A DNA stretch of 64,000 bases. Origin: an uncultured Pelagibacteraceae bacterium. GTDB taxonomy: Bacteria; Pseudomonadota; Alphaproteobacteria; Pelagibacterales; Pelagibacteraceae. The notes beneath the pieces were generated by a model that saw only the letters and a list, made by a program, of their open reading frames with translations, was not told where the DNA came from and did not search any database. Numbering within the stretch: position 1 is the first letter of the stretch; every line of letters begins with the position of its first letter. Positions 34,148 to 55,177 of the stretch are shown one piece after another. A program made the position numbers and the translations under genes. The stretch covers positions 62,001 through 126,000 of the forward strand of contig CACBFJ010000002.1 in the NCBI GenBank assembly GCA_902538495.1, read 5' to 3'.

Positions 34148-34387
34148 TTAATTTTTCGACTTACTGGCCCACCATTTGTCTAAAATAAAATACCAAACGG
34201 AGTTAGCGATTGGTTCAACAATCGCGTCAGTCAATGCAATCATGAAAGAAACGTCGGCAACTAACATTAGAACAGTTATGGCTATTGCAAAGTGTCCGAT
34301 TGTATAGATTATTGTCCTAAGGATAGAACCTTTATTATTTTGGTAGATATTACCTGCTGCTTTAAATATTCCGCTAGTTATTTCCAT
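34148..34387 (-). CDS. DUF2061-like small membrane protein
   Basis: A 79-aa protein with two hydrophobic helices (LRTIIYTIGHFAIAITVLMLVA and a second around residues 50-68) separated by a short loop and ending YFILDKWW. The pattern of 'R..IK/TIIY...H' followed by 'E.I.N.VWYF..ERxW' resembles DUF2061. Function unknown. It overlaps the hydroxylase-like gene by 14 bp, so they are translated together. Confidence 0.65.
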   Translation of the reverse strand: MEITSGIFKAAGNIYQNNKGSILRTIIYTIGHFAIAITVLMLVADVSFMIALTDAIVEPIANSVWYFILDKWWASKSKN

Positions 34388-34985
34388 TTTGTTCCTTAAA
34401 AGGGCTTTCTAGAACGCAAGCTACTAAGTGAATTCTAGCCTGTTCCCCACCATTAAAGAAATTATGATATTTTGTGTTGTTGGTTATCCAAACTTTACCA
34501 TTAGCAGGGAGATGTTTTGCAACATTCTCGATTACCATCGAGCAACCCTTGTTAGTAATAATTGGTACATGCAGCCTACACTCTGGGTCTTTATGCCAGC
34601 TGAGTGTTGACCTTGGCTCTTTTAACAAAAGTCTTACTCTACCCAGTTTAAATCTTTTACTTAACGTGTCATAAACTTCTTTAAAATAAGTATTCTCAAA
34701 TTCAGGGATTAATTGAGTATATTTAGACTCATCTATATCAACATCTCTACAAACTTCTTTTCCAGTTTCATCTGCTATAGTCCAATATTTACCTCGAATA
34801 TTATTTCCTTCAATAGAGCTTTTGTCATTTGGAATTTGGTTTAATGATATTGCACCAAAGTGTGTTACTCCAGGAGAGTTAAATTTTTTAGCTTTTAAAA
34901 TTTTATCTAAATCTTCCCTTAATCTTGTGATATCAAAATTAAGGTCTGGGACCTCATAAAAATCATCGAAGGTTACTGATGGCAT
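34374..34985 (-). CDS. Aspartyl/asparaginyl beta-hydroxylase-like dioxygenase
   Basis: A 203-aa protein with a cupin-type Fe(II)/2-oxoglutarate core. The metal HxD motif is in LSWHKDPECRLHVPI. The distal His and the 2OG-binding Arg are in KYHNFFNGGEQARIHLVA. The residue or substrate it hydroxylates is unknown; bacterial members also act on small molecules. It sits 21 bp downstream of katG on the same strand, so a ferrous-iron enzyme is probably coexpressed with catalase-peroxidase. Confidence 0.82.
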   Translation of the reverse strand: MPSVTFDDFYEVPDLNFDITRLREDLDKILKAKKFNSPGVTHFGAISLNQIPNDKSSIEGNNIRGKYWTIADETGKEVCRDVDIDESKYTQLIPEFENTYFKEVYDTLSKRFKLGRVRLLLKEPRSTLSWHKDPECRLHVPIITNKGCSMVIENVAKHLPANGKVWITNNTKYHNFFNGGEQARIHLVACVLESPFKEQNGNN

Positions 34986-35006: not shown

Positions 35007-37244
35007 TTAATTCAATTTTAAGTCAAATCTGTCCGAATTCATTACTTTAACCCACGCTGCGATAAAATCGTTAATAAATTTATCTCCTGAGTCCTCACAT
35101 GCGTAAACCTCTGCTAATGCTCTTAATTGAGAATTTGACCCAAAAATCAAATCAACTCTTGTCGCTTTCCATTTAATTTTTTGAGTTTTTCTGTCTTTAC
35201 CGACAAAAGTCTGCTCTGATTTATCTTCTTCTTTCCAAGTGGTATTCATATCTAGTAAGTTTATGAAATAATCATTTGTCAGATAACCAGGTCTTTTTGT
35301 AAAAACACCATGTTCTGAATTGTCATAATTAGTATCTAAAACTCTCATTCCACCTATTAGAGCTGTCATTTCAGGCGCTGTTAAACCCATCAACTGAGCC
35401 TTATCTACTAATTTTTCTTCTGCAGAAACATTTGAAGCTCCACCATTCAAGTAATTTCTAAAACCATCTGCTTGTGGTTCTAGAAGGCCAAACGAATTAA
35501 TATCAGTTTGGTCTTGTCTCGCATCTCCTCTTCCTGCTGAAAATGGAACTTTAACTTTATAACCAGCTTTTTTTGCGGCCATTTCGACTCCAACACCACC
35601 TGCTAGTACAATTAAGTCAGCCATTGAAACACTTTTTTTATTACTGTCAAATTTACTTTTGATTTTACTCAAGGCTTTAATCACATTTGATAACTTCTTA
35701 GGATTATTAACTTTCCAATTTTTTTGGGGCTCTAACATTATCCTTGCACCATTAGCACCACCTCTTTTGTCTGATCCTCTAAAAGTTGATGCTGACGCCC
35801 AAGCAGTTGATACTAAATCTGAAACCGATATTTTTGATTTAGAAATTTTATTTTTCAAATCTTTAATATCTTTTGACTTGAGTTTATATTTTGGTTTATC
35901 TATTGGATCTTGCCAAATTAACTGTTCTTTTGGAACTTCACTACCAAGATAACAAACTCTAGGACCCATATCTCTGTGAGTTAATTTAAACCAAGCTCTT
36001 GCAAAAGCATCATGAAACTCTTTTGGATTTTGATGAAAATGTTTTGTAATAGGGCCATAACTTGGATCAACTTTCATTGAGATATCAGTTGTTTGCATCA
36101 TTGGTGGGTGTAGCACACCTTTCTTATGTGCATCAGGAACCATTTTAATTTCTTGACCATTTTTCTTAGGCGTCCATTGGTGAGCACCAGCAGGGCTTTT
36201 TGTAAGCTCCCATTCATGTCCATATAAACAATCTAAATAGCCCATGTCCCATCTAATGGGATTTTGAGTCCAGGCGCCCTCAATACCACTGCTTATTGTA
36301 TCAACACCTTTTCCAGATTTGTAACCACTATTCCATCCAGTAGACTGGTCTTGAAGTTTTGAGGCCTCAGGATCAGGACCCTTAAATGATTCAGATGCTG
36401 CACCATGCGATTTTCCAAACGTATGTCCTCCAGCAACTAATGCAGCTGTCTCATAATCATTCATAGCCATTCTGCCAAATGTCTCTCTAATATCATGTGC
36501 TGCAAGTTTTGGATCTGGATTAGCATCAGGACCTTGGGGGTTAACATAAATTAAACCCATATGTGAAGCACCTAATGGTTGTTCTAAATCTCTTTTTCCA
36601 CTATACCTCTCAACACCTAACATTTCTTTTTCCGAGCCCCAATAGATATCATCTTCTGGCTCCCAAATGTCTGTTCTACCAGCTCCAAAACCAAAAGTTT
36701 TGAAACCCATTGAGTCTAACGCAACATTACCAACAAGTATAAATAAATCAGCCCATGAAATTTTTCTTCCATACTTCTTTTTGATCGGCCATAAAAGCAA
36801 TCTAGCTTTATCCAAATTCACATTATCTGGCCAAGAATTAAGAGGAGCAAATCTTTGATTACCTGTTCCAGCTCCACCTCTACCATCACCAGTTCTGTAA
36901 GTTCCAGCAGCGTGCCAAGCAAGCCTAATAAAGAGTGGTCCATAATGACCATAATCAGCTGGCCACCACTCTTGTGAGTCAGTCATTAATTTTTTTAAAT
37001 CTTTTTTCAGTGCTTTATAATTGAGTTTTTTAAACTCTTTAGCGTAACTAAATTTTTTATCCATAGGGTTAGATAAATTTGAGTGCTGACTAAGAATTTT
37101 AAGATTTAGGCTATTAGGCCAAAAATCTCTCACCGTTTGTCCCCGCCCTGCAGAAAACTTTGCAGGTGTTCCTGTCCCCGTAAAAGGACATTTGCTCATT
37201 TGATTTGCTTTAAAAGATTTATCTTTAAAATTTTCAGTACTCAT
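35007..37244 (-). CDS. katG: Catalase-peroxidase KatG
   Basis: A bifunctional haem enzyme that removes hydrogen peroxide. The distal triad is R107, W110 and H111 in [14 protein letters not shown]. The proximal His is in [13 protein letters not shown]. The Tyr and Met of the Met-Tyr-Trp crosslink are in [13 protein letters not shown] and FGRMAMND. At 745 aa both the haem and the degenerate C-terminal domains are complete, and no signal peptide is seen. A strong ribosome-binding site (AAAGGA) and a promoter with an Irr-like box lie upstream. Peroxide defence of this type is often missing from streamlined ocean bacteria. Confidence 0.97.
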
Positions 37245-37279
37245 TATTTTCCTTTAGATTAATTCGTTATAGAGTGTAG

Positions 37280-37306
37280 TTTATAATGATTCTAAAAAGC
37301 TGTCAA
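37280..37306 (-). promoter_or_regulatory. katG promoter with Irr-like box
   Basis: Read on the katG strand: a perfect -35 TTGACA (37301-37306), 17 bp, then -10 TAAACT, or TATAAA at 15 bp spacing. The box TTTAGAATCATTATAAA (37280-37296) fills the gap between -35 and -10. It is nearly palindromic about its centre and 15 of 17 bases match the copy between irr and fabA. Position and symmetry suggest repression by Irr or another Fur-family protein. Confidence 0.65.
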
Positions 37307-37339
37307 TTGGTTTAAAATGACGCTAAAGAAAACAAATAA

Positions 37340-37738
37340 TTAGTCTTCTAGCTTAACAAGAACTTCTACAGATTTAATCTTTTTACCGTTTATTTTTTTT
37401 AAGATGTTTATTGGGCCTACATCAGAATTTTCTAAATCGATTAACTTTTCATCTTTTAAATCATAAAAATGATGGTGATCGGTAACATTTGTATCAAAAT
37501 AAGTTTGGTTTGAATTAATCGGGATCTGTTTAAGATATCCTTTTTTTTCAAAAGCATGAACAGTATTATAAATTGTTGCTAATGAAATTTTGTTATTTTT
37601 TTGTCTCTTAATTTTCTGATCTAGCTCATTAATCGTGAAATGAAATGTCTTTTCTGTATCAAATAAAACCTCACATATTTGAAGTCTTTGTTTAGTTGGT
37701 CGTAATCCAGAATTTCTTAATTTATCGATATATTTCAC
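37340..37738 (-). CDS. irr: Fur-family iron response regulator Irr
   Basis: A 132-aa Fur-superfamily repressor/activator starting with GTG. The winged helix is SGLRPTKQRLQICEVLF and SLATIYNTVHAFEKKGYLKQ. The metal/haem-associated HHHFY motif follows in TDHHHFYDLKDEKL. Similarity to Irr, and the divergent fabA-fabB-fabI, an arrangement known from Rhizobiales, favour Irr over PerR. Irr senses iron through haem in rhizobia. No Cys-Pro haem regulatory motif is visible here, as in many Irr proteins outside Bradyrhizobium. Confidence 0.85.
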   Translation of the reverse strand: MKYIDKLRNSGLRPTKQRLQICEVLFDTEKTFHFTINELDQKIKRQKNNKISLATIYNTVHAFEKKGYLKQIPINSNQTYFDTNVTDHHHFYDLKDEKLIDLENSDVGPINILKKINGKKIKSVEVLVKLED

Positions 37739-37756
37739 TATTTAACCGTATTGTTA

Positions 37757-37773
37757 TTTAAAATTATTCTAAA
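37757..37773. promoter_or_regulatory. Irr-like box between irr and fabA
   Basis: TTTAAAATTATTCTAAA lies 19-35 bp upstream of the irr GTG and 60-76 bp upstream of fabA. It shares 15 of 17 bases with the box in the katG promoter, including the whole right arm ATTCTAAA. A TATAAT at 37794-37799 is a candidate -10 for fabA, so one bound regulator could affect both directions. Autoregulation of irr is the simplest reading. Confidence 0.6.
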
Positions 37774-37832
37774 CTGAGATTAAATTTATATTATATAATG
37801 GTAAAATCAAGTAAATAAGGATACTCAATTCT

Positions 37833-38333
37833 ATGAAAAAAAACTCATACTCCTATGATGAACTTATAAATTGTGGAGAAGGAAAATTATTTGGCCCAGG
37901 TAATGCTAAATTACCACTTCCACCAATGCTGATGTTTGATAGAATTACAGAAATTAATGATGACAAAGGAGCATTTAAAAAAGGTTCTTTAAAAGCTGAA
38001 TTAGATATTAAAAAAAATCTTTGGTTTTTTGATTGTCACTTTAAAGAAGATCCTGTTATGCCTGGCTGTCTTGGTCTTGATGCTATGTGGCAGCTGGTAG
38101 GTTTTTTTTTAGGTTGGATTGGAAATCCAGGAAAAGGAAGGGCTTTGGGTGTAGGTACAGTGAAATTTACAGGAGAAGTTTTGCAAAATATAAAATTAGT
38201 AAAATATGAAATTGATATGAAAAAAATCATGTCTCCTGGAGGTACTACAGTAGGTCTTGCTAATGGTATGGTTTTAGCCGATGATAAAAAAATTTATTCA
38301 GCAGACAATTTAAAAGTAGGATTATTTAAATAA
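37833..38333 (+). CDS. fabA: 3-hydroxydecanoyl-ACP dehydratase/isomerase
   Basis: Makes the cis-3-decenoyl-ACP branch point for unsaturated fatty acids. The catalytic His69 ([12 protein letters not shown]) and Asp83 (GCLGLDAMW) match the E. coli enzyme's pair. It is 166 aa. First gene of fabA-fabB-fabI, overlapping fabB by one base, divergent from irr. Confidence 0.96.
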
Positions 38334-39544
38334 TGAAAAGAGTCGTAATTACAGGTTTAGGAGTTGTTTCGTGTTTAGGAAATAACCAAGATGAAGTATA
38401 CAATTCTCTTTTAAACTCAAAGTCTGGAATATCTTTCAGTCCAGAATATAAAGAACATAATCTTAAAAGTCATATTCACGGTAAACCAAATATAAAACTT
38501 GAGGATTTTATTGATAGAAAAACAATAAGGTTTATGGGATCAGGTTCAGCATATAATTATGTTGCAATGAAAGAAGCTATCGAGGACTCTGGGCTTGAGG
38601 AGAAAGAGGTAAGCAATTTTAAAACTGGAATAGTAATGGGCTCAGGTGGCCCGTCGATTGAAAATGTGATTTTGGCTGCAGATAAAACTAGAGCTAAAAC
38701 TCCTAAACTTATGGGACCATTTATTGTTCCAAGAACAATGGCAAGCACTGCTTCGGCAACTTTGGCCGTACCTTTTAAAATAAAAGGGACTAATTATACA
38801 ATGAGCTCAGCATGTGCAACTAGTGGGCATTGTATAGGAAACTCTATGGAGTTAATTCAAATGGGAAAACAAGATATTGTCTTTGCTGGTGGAAGTGAGG
38901 AAATTCATTGGGCCATGACAGCTATGTTTGATGCAATGACTGCTTTGTCCTCAAAATATAATGATACACCTGAAACTGCTTCAAGAGCTTATGATAAAAC
39001 AAGAGATGGTTTTGTTATTGCTGGTGGGGGTGGAGTATTGGTGCTTGAAGAATATGAGCATGCTAAAGCAAGAGGTGCCAAAATATATGCTGAACTCACT
39101 GGATATGGAGCAACTTCAGATGGTTATGACATGGTAGCTCCATCTGGCGAAGGAGCTGTAAGATGTATGAAGATGGCAATGGCAACAGCAAAAAATAAAA
39201 TTGATTATATTAATACTCATGGAACATCTACTCCTGTTGGAGACATAACAGAACTAAACGCTGTAAAAGAAACTTTTGGTGAACAAATTCCGAAAATTAG
39301 CTCAACAAAATCTTTATCAGGTCATCCTTTAGGAGCAGCGTCGGTACACGAGGCGATATATTGTTTAATTATGATGAAAAATAATTTTATTGCTGGTTCA
39401 GCTAATATCAAAGAAATGGACGAGGAAGCTAAAAAATTTCCAATTGTTGCAAAATCAGAGAAAAATGTTTCTTTAAATGCGGTTATGTCAAACAGTTTTG
39501 GCTTTGGTGGAACCAATGCTGCACTTATTTTTGAAAAGGTTTAA
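38333..39544 (+). CDS. fabB: 3-oxoacyl-ACP synthase I
   Basis: Elongating condensing enzyme partnered with FabA for unsaturated fatty acids. The nucleophile is Cys161 in [14 protein letters not shown]; the two catalytic His are in [12 protein letters not shown] and [11 protein letters not shown]-terminal [15 protein letters not shown] is typical. It is 403 aa. Operon with fabA and fabI. Confidence 0.95.
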
Positions 39545-39546
39545 TC

Positions 39547-40332
39547 ATGAGCTTGATGAAAGGTAAAAAAGGATTAATCATGGGAGTTGCTAATGAAAGA
39601 TCTATTGCTTGGGGTATCTCTCAGAAACTTTCAGAGGCTGGCGCTGAATTAGCTTTTACGTATTTAGGTGATGCTCTTAAGAAAAGAGTGGTCCCTCTAG
39701 CAGAAAAATTAAATTCAAAATCAACTTTTAGCTGTGATGTTGAAAAAAAAGAAGAGGTTGTAAAATTATTTGAGAATATCAAATCTCAATGGGGAGAAAT
39801 TGATTTTGTAGTTCATGCAGTTGCATTTTCAGATAAATCAGAATTATCAGGCGAATATTTAAATACAACTAGAGAAAACTTTTTAAGAAGTATGTTAATT
39901 TCATGTTTTTCATTTACTGAAGTAGCAAAAGAAGCGTCAAAGGTAATTAAACAAGGTGGAAGTTTATTAACTTTAACTTACGAGTCTACTAAAGCTATTC
40001 CAAATTATAACGTAATGGGTGTTTGTAAATCAGCTTTAGAAGCTAGTGTTAAGTATCTAGCTCGAGATTTGGGTGCCAAAGGCATGAGAGTAAATGCAAT
40101 AAGTGCGGGCCCTATTAAAACATTGGCAGCTTCTGCGATTGGAGATGCAAAATTCCTATATAAATGGAACGAAGACCATTCTTTTCTCAAAAGAAACGTA
40201 GATATCCATGATGTTGGAAATTCAGCATTATATCTATTAAGTGATCTCGCAAACGGAGTTACTGGTGAAATTCACTATGTAGATGCAGGCTACAATAAAG
40301 TAGGAATGCCTGATCCAAAAAATATAACTTAA
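39547..40332 (+). CDS. fabI: Enoyl-ACP reductase
   Basis: NADH-dependent reductase finishing each fatty-acid elongation cycle. The SDR cofactor motif is the FabI-type MGVANERSIAWGI. The catalytic Tyr-x6-Lys is in NYNVMGVCKSALEA. C-terminal HYVDAGYNKVGMP is typical. It is 261 aa. Last gene of the fab operon, ending 2 bp before the convergent lectin gene. Confidence 0.95.
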   Translation: MSLMKGKKGLIMGVANERSIAWGISQKLSEAGAELAFTYLGDALKKRVVPLAEKLNSKSTFSCDVEKKEEVVKLFENIKSQWGEIDFVVHAVAFSDKSELSGEYLNTTRENFLRSMLISCFSFTEVAKEASKVIKQGGSLLTLTYESTKAIPNYNVMGVCKSALEASVKYLARDLGAKGMRVNAISAGPIKTLAASAIGDAKFLYKWNEDHSFLKRNVDIHDVGNSALYLLSDLANGVTGEIHYVDAGYNKVGMPDPKNIT

Positions 40333-40334
40333 TT

Positions 40335-42575
40335 TTAATATAAGTTTTGTCTTGATTTAACAGCTCTTAACTCTATTAAGTTTTCGTGTCCAACACCATC
40401 TTTATCAATTCTACTAAATACAGATTTAATATTCCACCCATTATCTAAAAACCAATCAAATCCAGTTTCCAAAATAATCATTGAGCTAAAGTTTTTATCA
40501 ATAGTAGTGTTATATATGGTTGTGTTTCCAACATAGTTGGCTAGTATATCTGATCCATCTGTAAGGTCTTTATTAAAATCTAACTTAAAATAAGGTATAA
40601 ATAATGAGTCGGTAAGATAAATTTCTTTCTCAACAGCAGATCCTAAAGAAATTGATGATGTTTCAAGTTCTCTTTTATCAAATTTTAGCTTTGAACTACT
40701 GCTACCTGTTTCAGAATATCCATCAAAATTTACAAAACCAAAATCAAATTTGGAATAATTGTGAAATTTATAATTTTTATGGACATTCTTTAAATTATAT
40801 TTAACCGAACCAAAAATTTGATTTGCTTTAAATTTACCTTTAACAACGTTAGAAGGATTTGAGGTATCAACAACACGTGTTGTAGCGTAAGTAGTTTTTC
40901 CTATTCCCAAGAAAGAATCAATATAATTTTTTTCAGATCCTTGCCAGGTATTGTATAATGAAAAATTATCAGATCTTGCTAAAAACTTAGTACTATTCTT
41001 AGTGCCTATATTAGATCGATCATCTTCATGCCTTAAAACAAGTCCAAATAAAGAACCTTTATCATAGTTAACGTCTGCACCTACTAAAAAACTTTCAGTT
41101 CTATTAATTATTCCTAAATCACCACCTGAGGTAAGATTAAGTCTACCTTTATTAATTGATCCAGCTGTCCAAAACGCCCAATCTTTTGGCGTCATATTAT
41201 AATTTTCTTTTAAATATTTTGTTAATGGTAGTTCACTAATTAAATCATCAATATTTTTTGCAGATAAATTCTTATATTTATCAATGTAATAATCAAAGAA
41301 TTCTGGAGGTATTTGTTCTTTGTAATTATTTTGATTAGAAAGAGTCAATTTCATATCTTTAATTCGAGTTGATTTATTAATTCCAACTCTTCTAAACTGT
41401 TCCATTCTTCGCATAACTTGATTGGTAGTATTAAACATAAATCTCTTAGCATGTTCTGTTTGTGCGTTTACCATTCCACTTACTTGTTTATCATTGAACG
41501 CAGTGTAAGTACTGCCGCTAGCTTCAGTTGAATTAATTGTTAATGTTGTTTGACCGCTTACTGTTGCACTTTCACCAGCTGTTCCACCATATTCAATTAC
41601 ATACGCTCCAGTTGTATCATTTGTGCAATGTAAGTCATTCCATTTACCTTTTCTGCCTGATGGAGAACCGTACATATGAGCACAATTTTCATCCCCGTCA
41701 TATGCAGATGGGTGATCGTTAGGTTCATCAGTTAACCAATTTGCATAAGAATAACCTGATGCAACTGTGCAATCCTCATGTGCAGGATCTGCCTTATTAA
41801 CTCCTGGTGTTGTACTCTCAATTGCTACTTGACAAAAAAAAGTCTTTCCGTTTTCAGGTCCTGAAACCCATTCCCATGTACCTTCTCCTGCTCGAGCATT
41901 ACCTTGTCCTAAATCAAGACTTATAGCTGGATGGGTATTAGATGTATGTGTTGCATCATCAGATCCACCAATCCAAGTATTGGTACCAATTTTATTTTTA
42001 ATAAAATTATTCTCAGCTTCACTTGTAATTGTTACGAGATAACCTGTAAGACCTAAGTAAGTTGAAGCTTCTGCAGCAGTTTTTGCGTCTTCCCAATTAA
42101 TAGTTCCAGTTACAAGTTCATAGTAATGACCATTTCCTGAAAAATAATTAGTACCAGCTGGAGTTACAGCAACAGTAATAGTAGGAGATCCAGCAACGCC
42201 ATCGCCTTTAAATGATAATGTTGCAAGTGCATTATTAATATCATCTTGTGTTCCTCTAAAACCTATTTCTGTAAGAGAATTACCTGTACACTGAGAAGGT
42301 ACACTTGAATTATCACTTGGATAATTACAATAGCCCTGTGCCTGCATTAGATTTGTAACAGAAGTTACCTTTATATTTCCATCCGATGCTACTGCTGAAA
42401 CGAGGAGAGTTCCTGTATAACCGCTAATACTAGGTGTTGTTCCTGAGCTTGATAGTAAAACGAAATCAGTTGTATCAGTTGTTAAAGTTGAAGGCATAGT
42501 AACTGTGCCTGAATAAACTTTATTACTGTTAAAGAAAAATAATAAAATAATCAAACTTAAGACAGCAACTCTCAT
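40335..42575 (-). CDS. Secreted C-type-lectin-domain protein with probable outer-membrane barrel
   Basis: A 746-aa exported protein. A signal peptide (residues 1-22, ending VYS) is followed by a Thr/Ser-rich domain with GTQDDINNALATLSF, a pattern of cadherin-like repeats. A C-type lectin domain (about 145-335) has WEDAKTAAEAS, the ligand-type motif EPNDHPS, and WNDLHC with paired cysteines. From about residue 465 to the end, alternating polar/hydrophobic strands with many Tyr/Asn/Gly, ending RQNLY, look like an autotransporter-type barrel. The EPN motif is the mannose-type in animal lectins; ligand here unknown. No partner transporter gene is adjacent. Confidence 0.75.
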   Translation of the reverse strand: MRVAVLSLIILLFFFNSNKVYSGTVTMPSTLTTDTTDFVLLSSSGTTPSISGYTGTLLVSAVASDGNIKVTSVTNLMQAQGYCNYPSDNSSVPSQCTGNSLTEIGFRGTQDDINNALATLSFKGDGVAGSPTITVAVTPAGTNYFSGNGHYYELVTGTINWEDAKTAAEASTYLGLTGYLVTITSEAENNFIKNKIGTNTWIGGSDDATHTSNTHPAISLDLGQGNARAGEGTWEWVSGPENGKTFFCQVAIESTTPGVNKADPAHEDCTVASGYSYANWLTDEPNDHPSAYDGDENCAHMYGSPSGRKGKWNDLHCTNDTTGAYVIEYGGTAGESATVSGQTTLTINSTEASGSTYTAFNDKQVSGMVNAQTEHAKRFMFNTTNQVMRRMEQFRRVGINKSTRIKDMKLTLSNQNNYKEQIPPEFFDYYIDKYKNLSAKNIDDLISELPLTKYLKENYNMTPKDWAFWTAGSINKGRLNLTSGGDLGIINRTESFLVGADVNYDKGSLFGLVLRHEDDRSNIGTKNSTKFLARSDNFSLYNTWQGSEKNYIDSFLGIGKTTYATTRVVDTSNPSNVVKGKFKANQIFGSVKYNLKNVHKNYKFHNYSKFDFGFVNFDGYSETGSSSSKLKFDKRELETSSISLGSAVEKEIYLTDSLFIPYFKLDFNKDLTDGSDILANYVGNTTIYNTTIDKNFSSMIILETGFDWFLDNGWNIKSVFSRIDKDGVGHENLIELRAVKSRQNLY

Positions 42576-54745: not shown

Positions 54746-55169
54746 TTTTTTTATCTACTTTGACACCATAAAGTTCCAGCTTGTGGTCAACTAATTTATA
54801 TCCATATTTGTTTGCAATTTTTTTTTGGAGTTCTTCTATCTCTTCATCAACAAACTCTATAATATCACCAGTTTTAATATCAATTAAATGATTATGATCA
54901 TCATTTATTTCATATCTTGCCTTACCACCCTTAAAATCGTGTTTTGTTAGAATCCCAGCTTCTTCGAAAAGTTTTACAGTTCTATATACTGTTGCGATGC
55001 TAATTTTAGGATCAATTTTTGAAACTCTATTATACAGCTCATCAACATCCGGATGATCAGACTCACCATAGGCTTTTTTTGACTCAGAAATAACCTTGGC
55101 AATAATTCGTCTTTGATCAGTGAGTTTTACCCCTTGAGATTGACATTTTTGTTCAATTGTTTCTGACAT
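54738..55169 (-). CDS. fur: Ferric uptake regulator family protein Fur
   Basis: A second Fur-superfamily regulator, 143 aa. The winged helix is KLTDQRRIIAKVI and ISIATVYRTVKLFEEAGIL. The dimerisation domain has DDHNHLIDIKTGDIIEF, a Fur/Mur-type metal site. Its place before miaB is the conserved alphaproteobacterial fur/mur locus. Whether it answers to iron or manganese cannot be read directly; the Fur-box-like repeat near 34.07 kb is a candidate target. Confidence 0.92.
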   Translation of the reverse strand: MSETIEQKCQSQGVKLTDQRRIIAKVISESKKAYGESDHPDVDELYNRVSKIDPKISIATVYRTVKLFEEAGILTKHDFKGGKARYEINDDHNHLIDIKTGDIIEFVDEEIEELQKKIANKYGYKLVDHKLELYGVKVDKKNE

Positions 55170-55177
55170 ACGTATTT

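Follow-up and report, generated by a model that had tools for sequence, protein, structure and literature searches.

Irr, Irr boxes and the synteny of irr with fabA are known, and the main comparative study of Irr boxes is reportedly that of Rodionov et al. 2006. In the Irr/iron control element regulons of Bradyrhizobium, Rhizobium, Brucella and Rhodobacter, an Irr-branch protein of the Fur family is associated with a palindrome of the TTAGAA-N-TTCTAA type, irr lies beside fabA, and the protein carries PerR-like iron ligands and a His cluster. Irr activates or represses according to the position of its box (PMC7762939). In R. sphaeroides, loss of Irr raised katE, and Irr did not bind the katE promoter (PMC3413700). 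Irr also controls mbfA of Rhizobiales and Rhodobacter, a ferritin-like, rubrerythrin-type gene with an Irr box (PMC3413700). A regulator gene likewise adjoins a catalase gene in the PerR-katA/katG circuits of Gram-positive and other bacteria, where an autoregulated Fur-family repressor has five peroxide-reacting iron ligands, and in the OxyR-katG pairs of Proteobacteria, where a cysteine-based activator of the LysR type serves peroxide defence.

The locus described here lies in a stretch of 64,000 nucleotides (the window) from a 966-kb genome in 26 contigs (86.5% complete, 30% G+C), whose nearest named relatives are single-cell and metagenome assemblies of Pelagibacteraceae (SAR11). It shares with the Irr regulons a probable Irr-branch protein, the palindrome, the position of irr beside fabA, the PerR-like iron ligands and the His cluster, but the circuit would be small and local, limited to irr and a single peroxide scavenger, where those regulons take in dozens of iron and haem genes. 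Like the PerR circuits it combines a Fur-family regulator, putatively autoregulated, with an adjacent catalase gene; the regulator nevertheless matches the Irr branch best, and the box is of the Irr type. The box on katG also differs from the situation in R. sphaeroides, where no binding to katE was seen (PMC3413700). The features of the locus are as follows.

35007-37244, minus strand: katG, catalase-peroxidase of 745 aa (TIGR00198, 1116.8 bits, cut-off 770)
37278-37283, minus strand: likely katG -10, TAAACT, with a 17-bp spacer (from sequence)
37280-37285, minus strand: alternative katG -10, TATAAA, with a 15-bp spacer (kept in relatives)
37280-37296, minus strand: Irr-type box B of katG, TTTAGAATCATTATAAA in the katG direction
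37301-37306, minus strand: katG -35, TTGACA (from sequence; conserved)
37311-37327, minus strand: degenerate second katG box, box A, TTTAGCGTCATTTTAAA (score 8.4; block conserved in the window's clade)
37340-37738, minus strand: irr, Irr-branch Fur-family regulator of 132 aa with a GTG start (IrrA model, E 1e-36)
37757-37773, minus strand: Irr-type box of irr, TTTAGAATAATTTTAAA in the irr direction
37794-37799, plus strand: likely fabA -10, TATAAT (from sequence; kept in genomes without the box; part of the neighbourhood, outside the proposed circuit)
37833-40332, plus strand: fabA-fabB-fabI operon (NCBIfam/Pfam; judged a syntenic neighbour, not a shown target)

katG is followed in the same orientation by a gene resembling aspartyl/asparaginyl hydroxylases (34374-34985), which may share its transcript. 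Beyond the fab operon, positions 40335-42575 encode a protein of 746 aa with a signal-like start and, by eye, a stretch resembling C-type lectins, which is unusual for so small a genome.

The reading preferred here, held with a probability of roughly 0.7, is that the two boxes are Irr operators through which Irr regulates its own gene and represses katG until haem or peroxide releases it, that katG occupies a modular slot, and that fabA is a neighbour. The boxes themselves are as the earlier note had described them: TTTATAATGATTCTAAA at 37280-37296 and TTTAAAATTATTCTAAA at 37757-37773 have 15 of 17 bases in common. Each is a palindrome at seven of eight pairs and agrees with TTTAGAATNATTCTAAA at 15 of the 16 positions specified. 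The katG strand here reads TTGACAGCTTTTTAGAATCATTATAAACT, with a perfect -35 followed by the box. The earlier placement of this box between a perfect TTGACA and the -10 thus holds for the -35 and slightly understates the rest, since the right end of the box overlaps the -10 (TATAAA/TAAACT). The second box is placed as had been stated, 19-35 bp ahead of the GTG of irr, and is about 60-76 bp before fabA. Box A (TTTAAAATGACGCTAAA, 37311-37327), 31 bp upstream of box B, had been overlooked.

The likeness of the two boxes is in itself weak evidence. A best 17-mer identity of at least 15 occurs in 2.5% of Markov-resampled pairs and in 3.9% of real intergenic pairs of the same genome (comparable A+T-rich regions), and as a standalone argument the 15/17 similarity was set aside as close to chance. 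It is the comparison with relatives that makes the case. In a matrix scan of Pelagibacterales, a site scoring at least 14 is found upstream of katG in 40/40 katG-irr loci, a score that is partly circular because the matrix was built from most of the sites scored. In 38 of the 40 loci TTTAGAATNATTATAAA occupies the spacer of the katG promoter, following the -35 (TTGAC or TTGAT) by 10-12 bp and overlapping the -10. This copy is the weaker of two in L126 and L133, while in L134 and L135 the katG box lies directly upstream of the -35 instead and is the only box present. A second box, 30-33 bp further upstream and immediately ahead of the -35, is present in many katG promoters, and better copies of box A than that of the window are found at this distance in L015, L016, L023-L029, L125, L129, L131 and L133.

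A matrix-free check made use of a further 80 named loci, in all of which katG adjoins irr. Across 79 distinct katG promoter sequences, no 17-bp window of the katG-irr intergenic region is better conserved than the katG box (98% mean identity, rank 1 of 77). The irr box is 93% conserved among 75 distinct sequences (rank 14 of 78), and it is kept in SAR11 with or without katG. Alignment of the katG-irr-fabA region across relatives shows strong conservation of both boxes. The conserved SAR11 box at katG and irr also resembles TTAGAAATATTCTAGA, the site bound by R. sphaeroides Irr in a gel shift (PMC6956336). Together with IrrA being the best curated model for the adjacent protein, these observations bear out the earlier proposal of Irr-type boxes at katG and at irr itself.

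The gene adjoining irr is not always katG. In most of the katG-less SAR11 with an irr locus that were examined, irr has as its codirectional neighbour a gene for a rubrerythrin of 138 aa, and a single genome, G073, has a peroxiredoxin-like protein of the Redoxin family in that place. The promoters of the rubrerythrin and peroxiredoxin genes have the layout of the katG promoter, with a box ending in TTCTAAA followed by CT.TTGAC and often a second box over the -10. Of 144 Pelagibacterales genomes, katG is present in 49 and rubrerythrin in 67, with no genome carrying both and 28 lacking both (Fisher P about 1e-18, uncorrected for phylogeny and with many genomes incomplete). Where irr and katG were both located they are less than 400 bp apart, in 44/44 genomes. 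The SAR11 rubrerythrin differs from MbfA in being of the soluble type and in adjoining irr, and scores only 21 bits on the MbfA model.

Several other settings combine a box with a peroxide gene. A divergent katG lineage (56% identical) occupies the slot in G015 and is preceded by TTTAGAATTATTATAAA. In three genomes of family f2 (G104, G130, G136) a tRNA-Pro gene adjoins a further katG lineage (about 61%); here katG does not adjoin irr in the stretches examined, and the upstream box is TTTAGAATCATTATAAA or a form ending in AAT. G092, also of f2, has a boxed irr next to a boxed katG, the pair resembling that of the window's genus; its fabA lies elsewhere and has no box. The arrangement looks like a transfer of the pair. 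In family f2, irr has no box although rubrerythrin does; like the failure of R. sphaeroides Irr to bind katE, this counts against the preferred reading. Because of the G015 katG, the katG beside tRNA-Pro, the pair in G092 and the rubrerythrin and peroxiredoxin promoters, box and peroxide gene are found together in several independent settings. The arrangement of irr with its own box next to a boxed, swappable and putatively Irr-controlled peroxide scavenger is well supported by this sequence comparison. The link from Irr to peroxide defence suggested in the earlier note is strengthened, the slot gene always being a known or likely peroxide scavenger (katG, rubrerythrin or peroxiredoxin).

On the irr tree at least five changes of the slot gene are needed, of which well-supported branches force two or three. 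The fabB tree, which is poorly resolved, requires 11 against these five, a difference that is only suggestive of cassette exchange.

Three side observations concern these loci. In L219, L220 and L221, from another family of the SAR11 order, a different katG lineage directly follows tRNA-Pro. Integration typically occurs at such genes, and yet an Irr-type box lies upstream of this katG. In rubrerythrin-type loci L030 and L137-L150, fabB is 90-96% identical to that of the window and irr only 62-67%, which suggests recombination exchanging irr and the slot gene as a unit. Beyond rubrerythrin in L137-L158 lies an ORF of roughly 440-450 aa that contains a CHGCRRCFNLCDSFP motif and resembles Fe-S oxidoreductases; it is conserved in both SAR11 families and in other Alphaproteobacteria.

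The proposed mechanism has Irr as the putative binder. On the box over its own promoter Irr would regulate its own synthesis, and on the box between the katG -35 and -10 it would exclude RNA polymerase and so repress katG. By analogy with Bradyrhizobium Irr, the operators would be occupied when haem or iron is scarce. Release would follow when Irr is loaded with haem or is oxidised by peroxide chemistry, and KatG, itself a haem enzyme, would be produced once haem becomes available or peroxide increases. The place adjoining irr would be a modular slot, filled in other SAR11 by rubrerythrin or peroxiredoxin behind the same box-TTGACA promoter.

In 'Cand. P. ubique' under low iron, rubrerythrin mRNA rose 1.57-fold with little change in irr (PMC2864753), a rise which simple low-iron repression does not predict; the sign of regulation may depend on box position. 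An alternative is thus that Irr activates the peroxide gene, binding at box A beside the -35 in low iron and recruiting polymerase while box B only modulates. The increase in iron-limited cells is what such activation would give, the sign of Irr action is known to follow box position (PMC7762939), and box A lies directly upstream of TTGACA in many slot promoters, being the position of the sole box at katG in L134 and L135. In the window, however, box A is degenerate, the strong box B lies over the -10 and the -35 is perfect, and activation is considered unlikely here.

The window protein scores 125.9 bits on the NCBIfam IrrA model (cut-off 150), 116.2 on the Irr model (cut-off 170) and at most 56 on PerR and Fur models. 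Its position below both Irr equivalog cut-offs counts against the preferred reading, and by model match it lies nearer to IrrA (126 bits) than to PerR (at most 56). Five PerR-type iron ligands, H33, D82, H88, H90 and D101, are invariant in 77 rows and correspond to H63, D111, H117, H119 and D130 of B. japonicum Irr, so that the His cluster with its HxH is present. B. japonicum Irr is oxidised via peroxide chemistry around these five ligands (PMC4700492). Unlike Irr of the described regulons, the window protein has no Cys-Pro haem regulatory motif in its sequence, and unlike typical PerR it has no CxxC zinc motifs, with a single cysteine in all.

The boxes could instead be bound by another regulator, for example the Fur paralogue at about 54755-55170 of the window or some other factor, with irr a passenger. 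Fur-family sites are all A+T-rich palindromes, and the genome encodes two further Fur-family proteins, which look like Fur and a Zur-like protein. This is improbable in view of the box on irr itself, its apparent movement with the irr-katG pair into G092 and its match to the known Irr site. Neither OxyR nor PerR was found in the available sequence of this 86.5%-complete genome. OxyR was rejected as a candidate, the sole LysR-type protein found being GcvA-like and, in contrast to OxyR, without cysteine.

The earlier note had also proposed that the circuit perhaps extends to unsaturated fatty-acid synthesis. Under this alternative, Irr at 37757-37773 would regulate the divergent fabA-fabB-fabI operon and couple it to iron status, and in the window the box does precede the likely fabA -10 by about 20 bp, within a divergent promoter region. 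Across relatives the spacing is variable: from the irr box to the conserved fabA leader element AAATCAAGTA most genomes have 24 bp, most members of the window's clade 30 bp and a further group 42-43 bp. The irr box is gone or decayed in L012, L014, L127, L128 and L130, all of which retain the fabA promoter region. In f2 irr adjoins fabA with no box between them, and fabA of G092 is likewise unboxed. Given these observations fabA was rejected as an Irr target and the proposed coupling did not hold up; such control of the operon is improbable, a minor effect of Irr on fabA is not favoured by anything found, and fabA-fabB-fabI is probably merely a neighbour of the circuit. The AAATCAAGTA element itself (37804-37813), between the fabA -10 and the start codon, is conserved in almost every fabA leader of the window's genus, including those that have lost the box, and may be a separate control element of fabA.

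It is very improbable that the boxes are no operators and simply represent core promoter sequence rich in A+T (-10 regions). In favour of this, the right arm contains a -10-like TATAAA, the genome has 30% G+C and the similarity of the pair alone is near chance. Against it, the conserved arm TTTAGAAT falls within the spacer, a part of promoters that is not conserved, a box can also lie upstream of the -35, as in L134, L135 and the rubrerythrin promoters, and perfect palindromes such as TTTAGAATAATTCTAAA in L153 exist.

With Irr retained as the putative regulator, its reach was judged from a matrix scan of the available genome. Of the 15 sites scoring at least 14, ORFs contain 12 (about 93% of the sequence is coding), and the three intergenic ones are those of katG, irr and C1:2450. 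With a matrix made from relatives and the window's own sites, the katG and irr sites rank as the top two among 126 intergenic regions. C1:2450 was followed in relatives as a candidate third target and rejected, as it is not conserved. An exact pattern search in 18 SAR11 genomes gave 1-6 matches in each, recurrently at the irr locus. The matrix scan yielded no wider regulon of haem, iron and Fe-S genes in this 86%-complete genome (about 13% is missing, and weaker sites would escape the matrix). As katG and irr are the only conserved intergenic matches in the available 86%, and no conserved target was found beyond them, the Irr circuit looks local, unlike the broad rhizobial regulon.

KatG and rubrerythrin are already known in SAR11 (PMC11366302). 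No description of Irr control of katG or of a swappable slot in SAR11 was found in the literature searched, which did not include Rodionov et al. 2006. As far as the literature examined goes, direct control of a catalase gene by Irr, putative here, would be new. A broader view is held tentatively, at somewhat less than even odds: in SAR11, Irr may have shrunk from global control of iron to a dedicated, PerR-like role over a single swappable slot, and lineages may exchange as one cassette irr, its operators and a scavenger based on haem (KatG), di-iron (rubrerythrin) or thiol (peroxiredoxin) chemistry. If this is true, lineages change the chemistry of the enzyme without changing its control. 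The locus would tie iron and haem sensing to peroxide defence and offers a concrete candidate regulator, with operators, for peroxide defence in SAR11, here in a genome whose available sequence yielded neither OxyR nor PerR. The slot, with katG and rubrerythrin mutually exclusive behind common operators, amounts to a natural experiment in which enzymes are swapped under one promoter, and it yields position-dependent predictions. Few marine bacteria are as abundant as SAR11, and their peroxide sensing and survival bear on the turnover of peroxide in the ocean.
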